In this document: positions 4,152 through 32,956 of the stretch, one piece after another
Layout: each line of letters begins with the position of its first letter
Position numbering within the stretch: the stretch's first letter is position 1
The notes under the pieces: generated by a model
What the model was told of the DNA's origin: nothing
The model's database searches: none
What the model saw: the letters and a program-made list of their open reading frames with translations, nothing else
Translations under genes and position numbers: made by a program
DNA from: Planctomyces sp. SH-PL62
GTDB taxonomy: Bacteria; Planctomycetota; Planctomycetia; Planctomycetales; Planctomycetaceae
Length of the DNA: 36,238 bases
Assembly (NCBI GenBank): GCA_945893075.1
Contig: CAMDDX010000030.1
Location: 1 to 36,238 of the forward strand
Direction of reading: 5' to 3'

Positions 4152-4249
4152 CTTTGGAGTGCGGTGTGTCAGCACCGCTTTGGATTCTTTCGGAATCGAT
4201 GTCGTTCGTCGGACAATCCAAAGCGGTGCTGACACACCGCACTCCAAAG
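4152..4249. repeat. Long perfect inverted repeat (35-bp arms, 28-nt loop) between convergent genes
   Basis: CTTTGGAGTGCGGTGTGTCAGCACCGCTTTGGATT (4152-4186) and its exact reverse complement at 4215-4249. Confidence 0.97.
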
Positions 4250-11859: not shown

Positions 11860-11937
11860 GGCGAGCGGGGTGGCGTTAGCCCCCCGGTGGTCACGATGGC
11901 CGCTGAAGACCGGGGGGCTGACGCCACCCCGCTCGCC
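11860..11937. repeat. Inverted repeat (29-bp arms, 1 mismatch, 20-nt loop) upstream of fur-family gene
   Basis: GGCGAGCGGGGTGGCGTTAGCCCCCCGGT / ACCGGGGGGCTGACGCCACCCCGCTCGCC. Confidence 0.95.
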
Positions 11938-12524: not shown

Positions 12525-13772
12525 ATGTCGCGTCTCGAACATTCCGAACCGACCGCCGCGCCGGAGACCGTCCGCCGCGCCGTGCAGCGTGACTACGAAC
12601 GCTTCGCCGTCTCTGGTCCGCCGATCCCTCTCGAACAATATCTGCTCGATGAATACGACCTCGACATGACTGCCAACTACGGCGGGTTCACGCTCAAGAA
12701 TCCGTGGGGCAAGGCGTCGGGTCAGTTATCGATGACGGCACGGCAAGTGGAAGAGGACGTCGCCGCCGGTCTGGGGTTTGTCGTTCTGAAGACCGTCATC
12801 GCGCAGGATGAACACGGCGAGCAGTCGATGGCGGCGTGGGCGATCCCCGAAGCGCGCATGGTGGCCGAGCCAATTATCGGGCAGTCGGGCGAACACGGCT
12901 GGACGATCACCTGGAAGGGCCGCGGTTGGTGGCAGTCGTTCGAGGCGTACTTGCAGTTGATCCGCGACGCGCGACGAGTCGCCGACGGCACTGGCACGCT
13001 GATCGTTCCGTCGTGCAAATATCACCTGCCATCTCCAAGCGAACCCGACTGGCGGCGCGGCGAATACGACTTCACCACACGGCGATTGCTGGAGGCTTGG
13101 CAGCCGGGCGAGACTCCGATGCCGCTCGAAAAGGATTTCAGTCCGACGCTCGCTGGAAGCGATCGGTCGGCCGTGCAAGCGAAGATCCTCGAATGGTTGC
13201 GCGTCGTCCCCAAGCTGATGCGCGAATCTGCTCAGACCAGCGGCGTCGGTGAAGTGTGCGTCGGGTTGAAGATGTTCAATGCGCTGTTCGACGACAGCTT
13301 TCAGATTGAGATGCTGGAGACGATTCACAGCGCTGGAACCGATCGGCCGGACTTCTTCGTCTATGCCAATCGGCTGTTCGACCCGCAGCGTGAGTTCGAC
13401 GGTCAGCGCGGAGTTGCGTTCGGCGGGCCGGACCTCAGTGACCGTAATCTGCGAGTGCTCGATCAGTGGCAGACGCATTCGGCCGGTGCATCCGCGCTGC
13501 CGTGGTCGGCGACCGGCAACATCACGACGGGTCGCATGGCGGTCGAATATCTCTGCCGCGGTGCGACGAGCTTTCAACTGCACACGTTCTTTCAACTCCC
13601 TGCTGACCAGTACGCGATGAAGGTCGGCAACCGGACTCAACGTGCTCTGCATGAGCTGCACTTTCATCCGCAAACCGGTCTCGTCGTCTGGCTGCATCAC
13701 CTAGCCAACCAGTTGGGACAATCGGGCCGACCAATTCGATTGCTGGACGTCTCAAGTCACCCGAAGCGTTAG
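12525..13772 (+). CDS. Dihydroorotate dehydrogenase-like (FMN TIM-barrel) protein
   Basis: GGFTLKNPWGKASGQLSMTARQVEEDVAAGLGFVVLKTVIAQDE and GAT/TTGR-type C-terminal barrel motifs resemble the DHODH family. Exact subfamily not determined. Confidence 0.6.
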   Translation: MSRLEHSEPTAAPETVRRAVQRDYERFAVSGPPIPLEQYLLDEYDLDMTANYGGFTLKNPWGKASGQLSMTARQVEEDVAAGLGFVVLKTVIAQDEHGEQSMAAWAIPEARMVAEPIIGQSGEHGWTITWKGRGWWQSFEAYLQLIRDARRVADGTGTLIVPSCKYHLPSPSEPDWRRGEYDFTTRRLLEAWQPGETPMPLEKDFSPTLAGSDRSAVQAKILEWLRVVPKLMRESAQTSGVGEVCVGLKMFNALFDDSFQIEMLETIHSAGTDRPDFFVYANRLFDPQREFDGQRGVAFGGPDLSDRNLRVLDQWQTHSAGASALPWSATGNITTGRMAVEYLCRGATSFQLHTFFQLPADQYAMKVGNRTQRALHELHFHPQTGLVVWLHHLANQLGQSGRPIRLLDVSSHPKR

Positions 13773-13849
13773 CGAGGGCGGTCGCTTCACCAGGCTGCGA
13801 TCTCGGAATCATCGTCGTGTGAAGCGTTCGCCCTCGCTGGCGCGTCGGG
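13760..13849. repeat. Imperfect inverted repeat (31-bp arms, 26/31) overlapping the stop codon of the DHODH-like gene
   Basis: CCCGAAGCGTTAGCGAGGGCGGTCGCTTCAC / GTGAAGCGTTCGCCCTCGCTGGCGCGTCGGG; right arm continues TTAG. Confidence 0.85.
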
Positions 13850-13923
13850 TTAGTTGTCGGCGCGCGATCCTCGCGATAGCTTGCTGCCGAGTTTTTCGAT
13901 CCACGGCAATTGAGGAGACAACC

Positions 13924-21163: not shown

Positions 21164-21289
21164 GGGGTCAGGTGTTCTGATTTCTGTTTTGGCCACACGA
21201 CGGCTGTGACTTTCAGTTGCCAAACAATCATCCCGACCACGGTTGACTCCGTTCGTGACGCCAAAACAGAAATCAGAACACCTGACCCC
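21164..21289. repeat. Perfect inverted repeat with 29-bp arms around a 68-bp centre (126 bp, MITE-like)
   Basis: GGGGTCAGGTGTTCTGATTTCTGTTTTGG (21164-21192) and exact reverse complement 21261-21289. Confidence 0.97.
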
Positions 21290-22817
21290 TCGCCCGCGCA
21301 CGAAGTTTCTGCTCGGCGCAGCGTTTGTGATCACGACGGGTTTGGGGCTGTTGTTGCTGGGTGGCCTCTGCGAGTCGGCGTTCGTCGATGTTCTCGGCTC
21401 GACAGCGAGCGATGAGAGTGAGTGGCTGACGAGCCTCTGCTTGACCGGACTGGTTGGTGCGGTCAGCGTGGCCAGCGGCGTTTGGCTGGCGCGTCGCATC
21501 CCGCGACGTGTGCTGTACCTGATCGTCTTCAGCAGCATGGTGGCGACCGTGACCATCGTGTTGGCGGAAGTCGTCTCGCGATTGGGACTCCCCGCATGGC
21601 CCGCCTCGGCGTTGCATGGCGTGCGGCCCAGCGTGCAACAGGCATTGATGACCGAGGCCGAACGAAACGATGTCGGGGCTCAGCGCAATGCCTGGGGACA
21701 GCGGGATCGCGAACGATCCTTGCGGCCCGCGGCAGGCGTGCTGCGAGTCGCCTTCATCGGAGATTCATTTCTGGAAGAGGGGATCGGAGCTCCCTTGTCA
21801 CTGGTCACGGAGAGGCTGCTCGACCGGGCGGACGTGGAAGTCGTCAACCTGGGCGTCTCTGCCACTTCACCGGACGAGTACTTCTACCGCGCGGCGCATG
21901 TGGCGTTGCCGCTCGAAGCGACGGGCTGCGTCGTCTGCATCTACTTGGGCAACGATTTGGCGGCGGACCATCGCACGCTGCCGAGTTGGTTCGGCATCGC
22001 CGCCGTGTCTCCGCGACCGGCGTTACTGACCACCTTGGGCTTGCGCGGACTGAATGATGTGCTGACGACTCGCGAGCGGCCGGTGCTGAAGATTTGGAGC
22101 AACGCCGGTGGTCTGGGTGAATCCGAAAAAAAGATGCACGAGTCCTGCCGCAACAGCTCCGACCGCGAACTGGCGGAACTCTTGTTGAGAAACGCGGAGT
22201 TGCCTCCACAGTTGGCCGAGCTAGTGCGCCCGCAAATGCTGGGGGCAGAGATGGCCTCGTTCTACAACGTGCTGCGCGATCCAGATGAGGGTCGATTTCG
22301 CTCGTACTTTCTGTTCGACGGCGTCTGGTTGAAGGCCACGGGGATGACGCCGCAGATTCTCAGCGATCCCGCATCGACGCTGCATTGGGTGCGTGTCGCC
22401 GCTGCGGTGTATTCGCGGCCGAAGGACCGAAGCGGCAAACTAGCCCGACGCGCAAGCGAGGGAGTGGGGATCAACGGCGGTGTTGATCCCTCGCTTGCGC
22501 GTCGGGCTAGTGTGGAAACCACTGCTCGATTCTTGGTGGTCCTGATCCCCGAAGGGTTTGCCGTCGATCCCCGGATGCAGGAACAATGGGCACCGTTGGC
22601 GGACATGCGGCGGATGACCGACAAGACCTCCGCGGCCGGACGTCGCATCGAACAAGAACTGACTCAAGCGGGGATTGAAGTGCTGAATCTGACGGACACT
22701 CTGGCCGGCGTTCGTGGCACGTACTTGAACGTGGATGGGCATTGGTCGCCGCTAGGAATCGAAACCAGTGCGGCCGCCGTGGCGGCTCATTTACGTCGTT
22801 GGTTGGAAGAGCCTTGA
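21243..22817 (+). CDS. Membrane-anchored SGNH/GDSL hydrolase-like protein
   Basis: Two N-terminal hydrophobic helices; block I FIGDSFLEEG, block V-like NVDGHWSPLG. N-terminus overlaps the inverted-repeat arm, so the true start is uncertain. Confidence 0.75.
   Translation: MTPFVTPKQKSEHLTPRPRTKFLLGAAFVITTGLGLLLLGGLCESAFVDVLGSTASDESEWLTSLCLTGLVGAVSVASGVWLARRIPRRVLYLIVFSSMVATVTIVLAEVVSRLGLPAWPASALHGVRPSVQQALMTEAERNDVGAQRNAWGQRDRERSLRPAAGVLRVAFIGDSFLEEGIGAPLSLVTERLLDRADVEVVNLGVSATSPDEYFYRAAHVALPLEATGCVVCIYLGNDLAADHRTLPSWFGIAAVSPRPALLTTLGLRGLNDVLTTRERPVLKIWSNAGGLGESEKKMHESCRNSSDRELAELLLRNAELPPQLAELVRPQMLGAEMASFYNVLRDPDEGRFRSYFLFDGVWLKATGMTPQILSDPASTLHWVRVAAAVYSRPKDRSGKLARRASEGVGINGGVDPSLARRASVETTARFLVVLIPEGFAVDPRMQEQWAPLADMRRMTDKTSAAGRRIEQELTQAGIEVLNLTDTLAGVRGTYLNVDGHWSPLGIETSAAAVAAHLRRWLEEP
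22440..22510. repeat. Palindromic element in frame inside the SGNH hydrolase CDS (24-bp perfect arms)
   Basis: CTAGCCCGACGCGCAAGCGAGGGA (22440-22463) / TCCCTCGCTTGCGCGTCGGGCTAG (22487-22510); encodes LARRASEGVGINGGVDPSLARRAS. Confidence 0.97.
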
Positions 22818-22868: not shown

Positions 22869-23065
22869 AGCCGCGAAGCGGCGACGGAATTTAGCCGTGG
22901 GCGCAAGCCCACGGAAAAGTGGGGAACAAGAGGCAAAGCCCTGAAAGGGCGACGCTCGAATGTGGTTCACGCGATGGCGTCGCCCCTATCGGGGCTTGAT
23001 CGGCAACAAGACCCGAAAACCGTGGGCTTTCGCCCACGGCTAAACTCCGTCGCCACTCCGTGGCT
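22869..23065. repeat. Nested composite palindrome (46-bp outer arms 41/46, plus inner hairpins)
   Basis: AGCCGCGAAGCGGCGACGGAATTTAGCCGTGGGCGCAAGCCCACGG versus CCGTGGGCTTTCGCCCACGGCTAAACTCCGTCGCCACTCCGTGGCT; inner AAGCCCTGAAAGGGCGACG / GGCGTCGCCCCTATCGGGGCTT. Confidence 0.92.
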
Positions 23066-31652: not shown

Positions 31653-31847
31653 CCCAAAGGGCCATTACTCGAAAGCCCAGGGCGCAGCCCTGGGAATCGG
31701 TCCCCCAAAAAGTTCTTCAAGGCCCAACGGGCCGCGACTCGTTCTATCTATAATCCGCGAGTCGCGGCCCGTTGGGCCTTACCAATCGCCAAACATCGGC
31801 TGGCAACCCAGGCCTGCGGCCTGGGCTATCGAGTCGCGTACCTTTGG
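31653..31847. repeat. Nested composite palindrome: perfect inner 23-bp arms and degenerate outer arms
   Basis: Inner AAGGCCCAACGGGCCGCGACTCG (31719-31741) / exact reverse complement 31758-31780; outer CCAAAGG...ACTCGAAAGCCCAGGGCGCAGCCCTGGG versus CCCAGGCCTGCGGCCTGGGCTATCGAGT...CCTTTGG. Confidence 0.92.
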
Positions 31848-32890: not shown

Positions 32891-32956
32891 GTAGCCACGC
32901 TCGCCAAGAGCGTGGGTTTTCCGCGAATCTCCCACGCTCTTGGCGAGCGTGGCTAC
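32891..32956. repeat. Perfect inverted repeat (26-bp arms, 14-nt loop)
   Basis: GTAGCCACGCTCGCCAAGAGCGTGGG (32891-32916) / CCCACGCTCTTGGCGAGCGTGGCTAC (32931-32956). Confidence 0.97.

Follow-up and report, generated by a model that had tools for sequence, protein, structure and literature searches.

The window, by which we mean the whole 36,238-nt stretch of planctomycete DNA analysed here, contains a gene for an SGNH hydrolase in which a palindrome is read through as protein, and this locus raises the question of what such an element is, where it came from and how its host gene carries it. A sequence-only reading had likened the palindrome to the Rickettsia palindromic elements (RPEs).

The palindrome and its host gene

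The two arms of the palindrome (core 22440-22510, 71 nt) were complementary at 24/24 positions around a 23-nt spacer, and the hairpin greatly exceeded shuffled sequence in stability (RNA z -8.3; DNA z -13.0; 0/200 shuffles as good). In the host frame the region reads VYSRPKDRSGK-LARRASEGVGINGGVDPSLARRAS-VETTARFLVVLIPEGF with NVDGHW further downstream, and the frame is open from 5' of the insert through to the stop at 22817, which bears out the sequence-only claim of a palindrome lying in frame within an SGNH hydrolase. The extent first given is exact for the inverted repeat, but the conserved unit runs 4 nt further on each side to 79 nt (Table 1), as the outer TGTG/CACA is kept in 105 non-redundant unit ends and the information is at background beyond 4-5 nt; the family ends are CACA...TGTG and those of the window copy CAAA...TGTG. 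The inserted peptide, previously described as near-mirror, proved to be a direct repeat of LARRAS, because the arms are reverse-complementary and the reverse complement, one base out of register, spells LARRAS again. No T-run terminator was present 3' of the palindrome, and Rfam returned only sub-threshold microRNA-type matches for its hairpin.

Table 1. Coordinates of the host gene and of the parts of the palindromic element in the window
Feature	Positions	Strand	Basis
Host ORF, AlgX-type SGNH hydrolase (longest reading; TTG candidate start)	21243..22817	+	PF16822 (E 9e-8, above cut-off); seven orthologues; motifs
REP-pair (REPIN-like) unit, complete with semi-conserved outer 4 nt (CAAA ... 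TGTG)	22436..22514	+	28-nt inverted repeat, 96%; outer-end conservation
Left REP arm CTAGCCCGACGCGCAAGCGAGGGA	22440..22463	+	Perfect complement of right arm; 0 mismatches to family motif
Spacer, 23-nt, GTGGGGATCAACGGCGGTGTTGA, partly self-complementary	22464..22486	+	Similar spacers in copies on contigs C22, C3 and C171
Right REP arm, reverse complement of left arm	22487..22510	-	Arm alignment
Read-through codons (n = 24), LARRASEGVGINGGVDPSLARRAS	22440..22511	+	Translation; sole open frame of the element on the + strand

The SGNH motifs FIGDSF, YLGND and NVDGHW (GDS, GND, DxxH) are kept in the host protein and in its orthologues, and in the host protein GDS and GND precede the insert and DGHW follows it, all intact. 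A search of 170 genomes of the family, a set identical at family and order rank, yielded seven orthologues that were 39-48% identical upstream of the insert and came entirely from other genera; two entries (L031 and L025, G127) aligned as the same protein and were counted once. The SGNH gene was not found in the same-genus genomes, and the empty site is known only from these orthologues. None of them carried a LARRAS-type segment at the corresponding place, and the interval between HW and IP[DE]GF was exactly 21 residues in 7/7 in comparison to 54 here. This difference of 33 residues comprises 24 from the palindrome, the number of added codons originally reported, and 9 flanking residues outside it, which that report had left out of the total. 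The order of the hydrolase and the downstream TPR/mannosyltransferase-like gene was kept in the two relatives compared (L010, L011).

A structure model from AlphaFold, built on a two-sequence alignment and of low confidence (mean pLDDT 48.6), put the insert in a low-confidence segment with a predicted helix (360-374) before it and a predicted strand (410-419, FLVVLIP) after it, and a PDB sequence search gave no match. In the SGNH fold, helix-to-strand loops of this kind sit away from the catalytic face. By this weak model the insert probably occupies a helix-to-strand loop away from the catalytic residues.

Other repeats lie close to the gene. A 37-nt inverted repeat at 21164-21289 (GGGGTCAGGTGTTCTGATTTCTGTTTTGG...) overlaps the 5' end of the SGNH ORF, with candidate upstream starts (TTG at 21243, possibly GTG near 21255) in or beside it; its sequence also forms inverted pairs on either side of a Y1_Tnp gene on contig C147 (L092), and it therefore looks like a transposase-associated terminal repeat. 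Just 3' of the gene, two facing Acido-Lenti-1 (RF01687) matches above the Rfam threshold (22869-22914 and 23020-23065) form a 46-nt inverted repeat that is separate from the palindrome.

The REP-pair family and its copies in other genes

The palindrome is one copy of a dispersed REPIN-like family in which small bulged hairpins stand inverted around a spacer. Each main-class arm folds singly into a bulged hairpin (CCC..CGC-GCAA-GCG.GGG) with an unpaired foot, CACACTAA; the hairpin sequence of the family includes CACACTAACCCGACGCGCAAGCGAGG, and the family ends read CACACTA[AG]...[CT]TAGTGTG. Allowing up to 2 mismatches, the 7.57-Mb draft genome held 303 arms in comparison to 5 for a reversed control, a strict pattern recovered 57 inverted pairs against 0 in the control, and the palindrome pairs of the family number well over a hundred genome-wide. 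The family was present in 12/12 same-genus genomes and in 23/59 relative genomes, with a control of essentially 0. Among 70 pairs sampled from listed places rather than from the full set, main-class units were mostly 59-62 or 70-71 nt in length, and units of a second, longer class (about 91-99 nt) often had GTAA feet. The step between the two main length clusters is ~10 nt, about one DNA helical turn. A 98-nt member of the longer class lies elsewhere in the window (13756-13853), where it overlaps the start listed for the ORF at 13819, and other long near-perfect inverted repeats at 4152-4249, 11860-11937, 31719-31780 and 32891-32956 apparently belong to several other families.

Reading frames were assessed with codon usage trained on this genome, where a copy was scored as in frame if both flanks were best read in one continuous frame through the element. 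By this measure 22/60 sampled main-class pairs, the window copy included, were in frame within codon-biased ORFs and 38/60 failed, with 3 on the same strand but shifted; the family is thus in frame in many genes besides the hydrolase. In the stop-free frames, translation of the 5' arm mostly gives L[AT]RRASE or T[NS]PTR[KQE]RG, and that of the 3' arm almost always SLARR[VA]S. Profile-checked hosts included PriA, GlnE, a methylmalonyl-CoA decarboxylase-type carboxyltransferase, a fused pyruvate dehydrogenase (PDH) E1, TsaB, a SelD fusion, UvrA, an A2M/TED protein and a DUF1592 protein, and in most of them a single family match bridges the insert. Three more carry putative names read from their sequences, namely GH94 (L005), DUF1549 (L055) and a glycosyltransferase-like protein (L062), for the last of which profile searches gave no match. 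The in-gene share was higher for units of 70-71 nt (9/14) than for those of 59-62 nt (9/36; p 0.02), although some of the short units have flanks in common and resemble a single intergenic subfamily.

Further repeat peptides were seen in some of these genes. UvrA (L084) contains two copies of another in-frame repeat peptide, VGSLFPAAE...SRQEKDSRPL, a related form of which is present in L079; repeat-like peptides are found in L089 (MGTLARPAEETGRSARPT) and L062 (VGQPFQADSEGRQAHD), and GlnE (L050) has a second REP-like stretch, GSRREAQARLARRVSEALP.

Occupancy of the same sites in species of the genus

Same-genus orthologues were sought with the insert-free flanks of 13 of these in-frame host genes, and the analysis covered 11 genes. 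At 8/11 sites a palindrome lay at the same place in at least one same-genus orthologue; at the remaining sites (PDH E1, TsaB and L005) none of the orthologues found had a palindrome, one L005 orthologue carrying a single REP arm, and PDH E1 and TsaB provided clean empty sites. An inverted repeat with a score of at least 10 was present in 35/62 orthologous segments, in comparison to 21/492 control windows drawn from these loci (odds ratio 29); the rows are related by descent, and the p value is therefore only indicative. As the sites had been picked for a REP pair in G000, occupancy by relatives that share the insertion, as at SelD, is inflated, and occupancy by unrelated palindromes is not. 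All orthologous segments were multiples of three and lacked a stop.

By similarity the occupants grouped into a total of about eleven clusters, of which the weakest may be marginal, and at 6/11 sites some same-genus occupants had no detected similarity to the REP family. At the L055 site, for example, two species had the REP family, three had GGACGCC(T/C)ACGTC repeats, two had GACGGGCACTC repeats and one had a GGGCGAGGCTC palindrome. Two of the occupant families are dispersed as well, reaching as many as 167 and 235 matches in a genome. REP-family variants predominate at the SelD and glycosyltransferase-like sites, and the spacer and arms at the SelD site are common to G000 and G003, which is vertical inheritance. 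By eye, no target-site duplication was recognised in the same-genus empty-site alignments, where indels were small and variable with no constant duplication, and net length differences between empty and filled sites varied in multiples of three and were unequal to the unit length.

One tentative interpretation, which we regard as possible although doubtful, is that certain loops in conserved planctomycete proteins serve as common landing sites, at which unrelated palindromes swap between species of one genus, always in frame. If true, this would point to targeted insertion into, or exchange at, existing palindromes and not to random insertion plus selection. In the open-access literature searched, neither this REP family nor in-frame sharing of sites by unrelated palindromes across a genus is reported. 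The changing occupant at shared sites is the newer part of these observations, in-frame REPs in genes being already known from R. conorii and Opitutus terrae.

Relation to known elements and origin of the insertion

Comparison with described systems showed likenesses to several. RPE-1 and other RPEs of R. conorii are multicopy palindromes that lie in frame in coding genes and are read through, and RPE-4 and RPE-6 are CGTC-tagged families of that genome (PMC3733652). The family described here resembles them in its in-frame insertion within protein genes and differs in having no CGTC tag (CACACTA[AG]...TGTG instead), in its planctomycete host and in the failure of most sampled copies in the in-gene test. 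The RPE-like character first proposed therefore holds for behaviour, as the element is multicopy, in frame, absent from other-genus orthologues and borne by a gene that looks intact, but membership is not supported. REP dimers in ORFs of Opitutus terrae, of the PVC superphylum, encode 20-30 residues, uvrA genes included, REP families occur in R. baltica, and recB of two Xanthomonas species carries different REPs at about the same site (PMC3733652). The likeness to the GTAG-tagged REPs of O. terrae extends to dimers within uvrA, whereas the GTAG/GTGG foot is absent here, GTAA occurring in the longer related class, and no associated RAYT was found. REPINs are REP doublets that form hairpins, are associated with RAYTs and are thought to be moved by them (PMC3116915, PMC6006769); our family shares their two inverted REP hairpins, variable spacer, outermost feet and dispersal at moderate to high copy number, and is unlike them in that a RAYT link was not found and about a third of sampled copies lie within genes. 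In-frame REPs also occur in tnpA_REP subclass 2.4 genes, a likeness to the insertions here, and class 3 TnpA_Y1 of Planctomycetes are accompanied by CnGA-foot structures (PMC6006769). The CCGA before the inner hairpin fits CnGA, which is a lead only, and this genome showed no recognisable class 3 transposase gene.

A mobilising enzyme was sought among Y1_Tnp genes. The genome, a 93% complete draft, had 8 Y1_Tnp matches; one variant REP pair lay ~0.9 kb from such a gene, and overall proximity was about that expected by chance. A RAYT adjoining the REP family was not found in this or the same-genus genomes, one of which (G011) had 130 arms and no Y1_Tnp match. Other palindrome families of the genome do flank Y1_Tnp genes, which makes an enzyme of this class plausible for some occupants. 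On contig C203 (L020/L091) a Y1_Tnp gene stands between GGGGTCGGGTCTACGATTTTTCGGATTTGGC inverted pairs and its own ORF holds GRVYDFSDLAGT twice; the transposase frame seems to pass through this repeat both inside the gene and at its end.

Taken together, the 71-79 bp palindrome is very probably a non-autonomous, dispersed REPIN-like element that inserted into a loop of the SGNH gene and is tolerated there, by a process that acts genome-wide. That the palindrome instead inactivated the gene, leaving a pseudogene whose frame is open by chance, could be argued from the 24-33 added residues, from a very stable mRNA hairpin that could hinder translation, and from the consideration that most insertions of random length or phase close the frame, such that an open frame alone is no proof of function. 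We consider this very unlikely, as the 508 codons of the gene show no other frame damage, GDS and DGHW are intact on either side of the insert, codon usage is coding-like in the same frame 5' and 3' of it, and the family is in frame in TsaB, PriA and UvrA, whose loss is generally costly. Equally improbable is a selected functional element, either an RNA hairpin that regulates translation or the stability of the mRNA, or a peptide that has become adapted to use in the protein, rather than a tolerated parasite; the strong hairpin and the repeated filling of the same intragenic sites across species, as if maintained, would fit this, but occupant sequences differ completely between species, some orthologues (PDH E1, TsaB and several others) have no palindrome at all, no T-run terminator follows the element and the host proteins have unrelated functions. 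There is no sign that the inserted peptide is itself functional.

With regard to origin, a genuine Rickettsia-type RPE or a GTAG-type REP family moved by a RAYT would share the inverted repeat, the multicopy in-frame occurrence in genes, the REP-type bulged hairpin arms and, in some copies, the GTAA feet; it is nevertheless unlikely, as the CACACTA[AG] feet are neither GTAG nor CGTC and a REPtron for the family was not found. Somewhat less likely still is that the repeats at shared sites descend from a single old insertion, the arms of which then diverged through mutation and conversion. The inherited SelD insertion of G000 and G003 and the dominance of REP-family variants at the SelD and glycosyltransferase-like sites favour such descent, in comparison to repeated insertion, which is favoured by the 6/11 sites with occupants lacking detected REP-family similarity, two of these occupants being dispersed families with tens to hundreds of matches.

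In the REPIN-like reading that we prefer, a non-autonomous pair of short inverted REP hairpins with CACACTA[AG] feet would have inserted into the loop of the hydrolase gene. The copy would survive because its arms can be read without stops and the insertion alters the length by a net multiple of three, and because the site is probably a helix-to-strand loop off the catalytic residues, where 24 to 33 extra residues may be tolerated. We infer that REP pairs are mobile and insert across the genome, where selection would purge frameshifted or damaging insertions and keep intergenic ones together with in-frame ones in permissive loops. Several palindrome families may insert again and again into the same permissive loops in conserved proteins, and these shared sites may be merely permissive or may be targeted, either by insertion into an existing palindrome or by hairpin loss followed by new insertion.

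In summary, the insertion of palindromes in frame, for which Rickettsia is the best-known case, is common in a planctomycete genus with large genomes and extends to housekeeping genes. For annotation, peptides such as LARRASEG, TNPTRKRG and SLARRVS in these proteins should be taken as repeat DNA and not as domains. The site-sharing pattern is the part worth following, as filled, empty and differently filled versions of one loop within a genus allow questions of tolerance, of targeting to old sites and of the seeding of new protein sequence to be asked.
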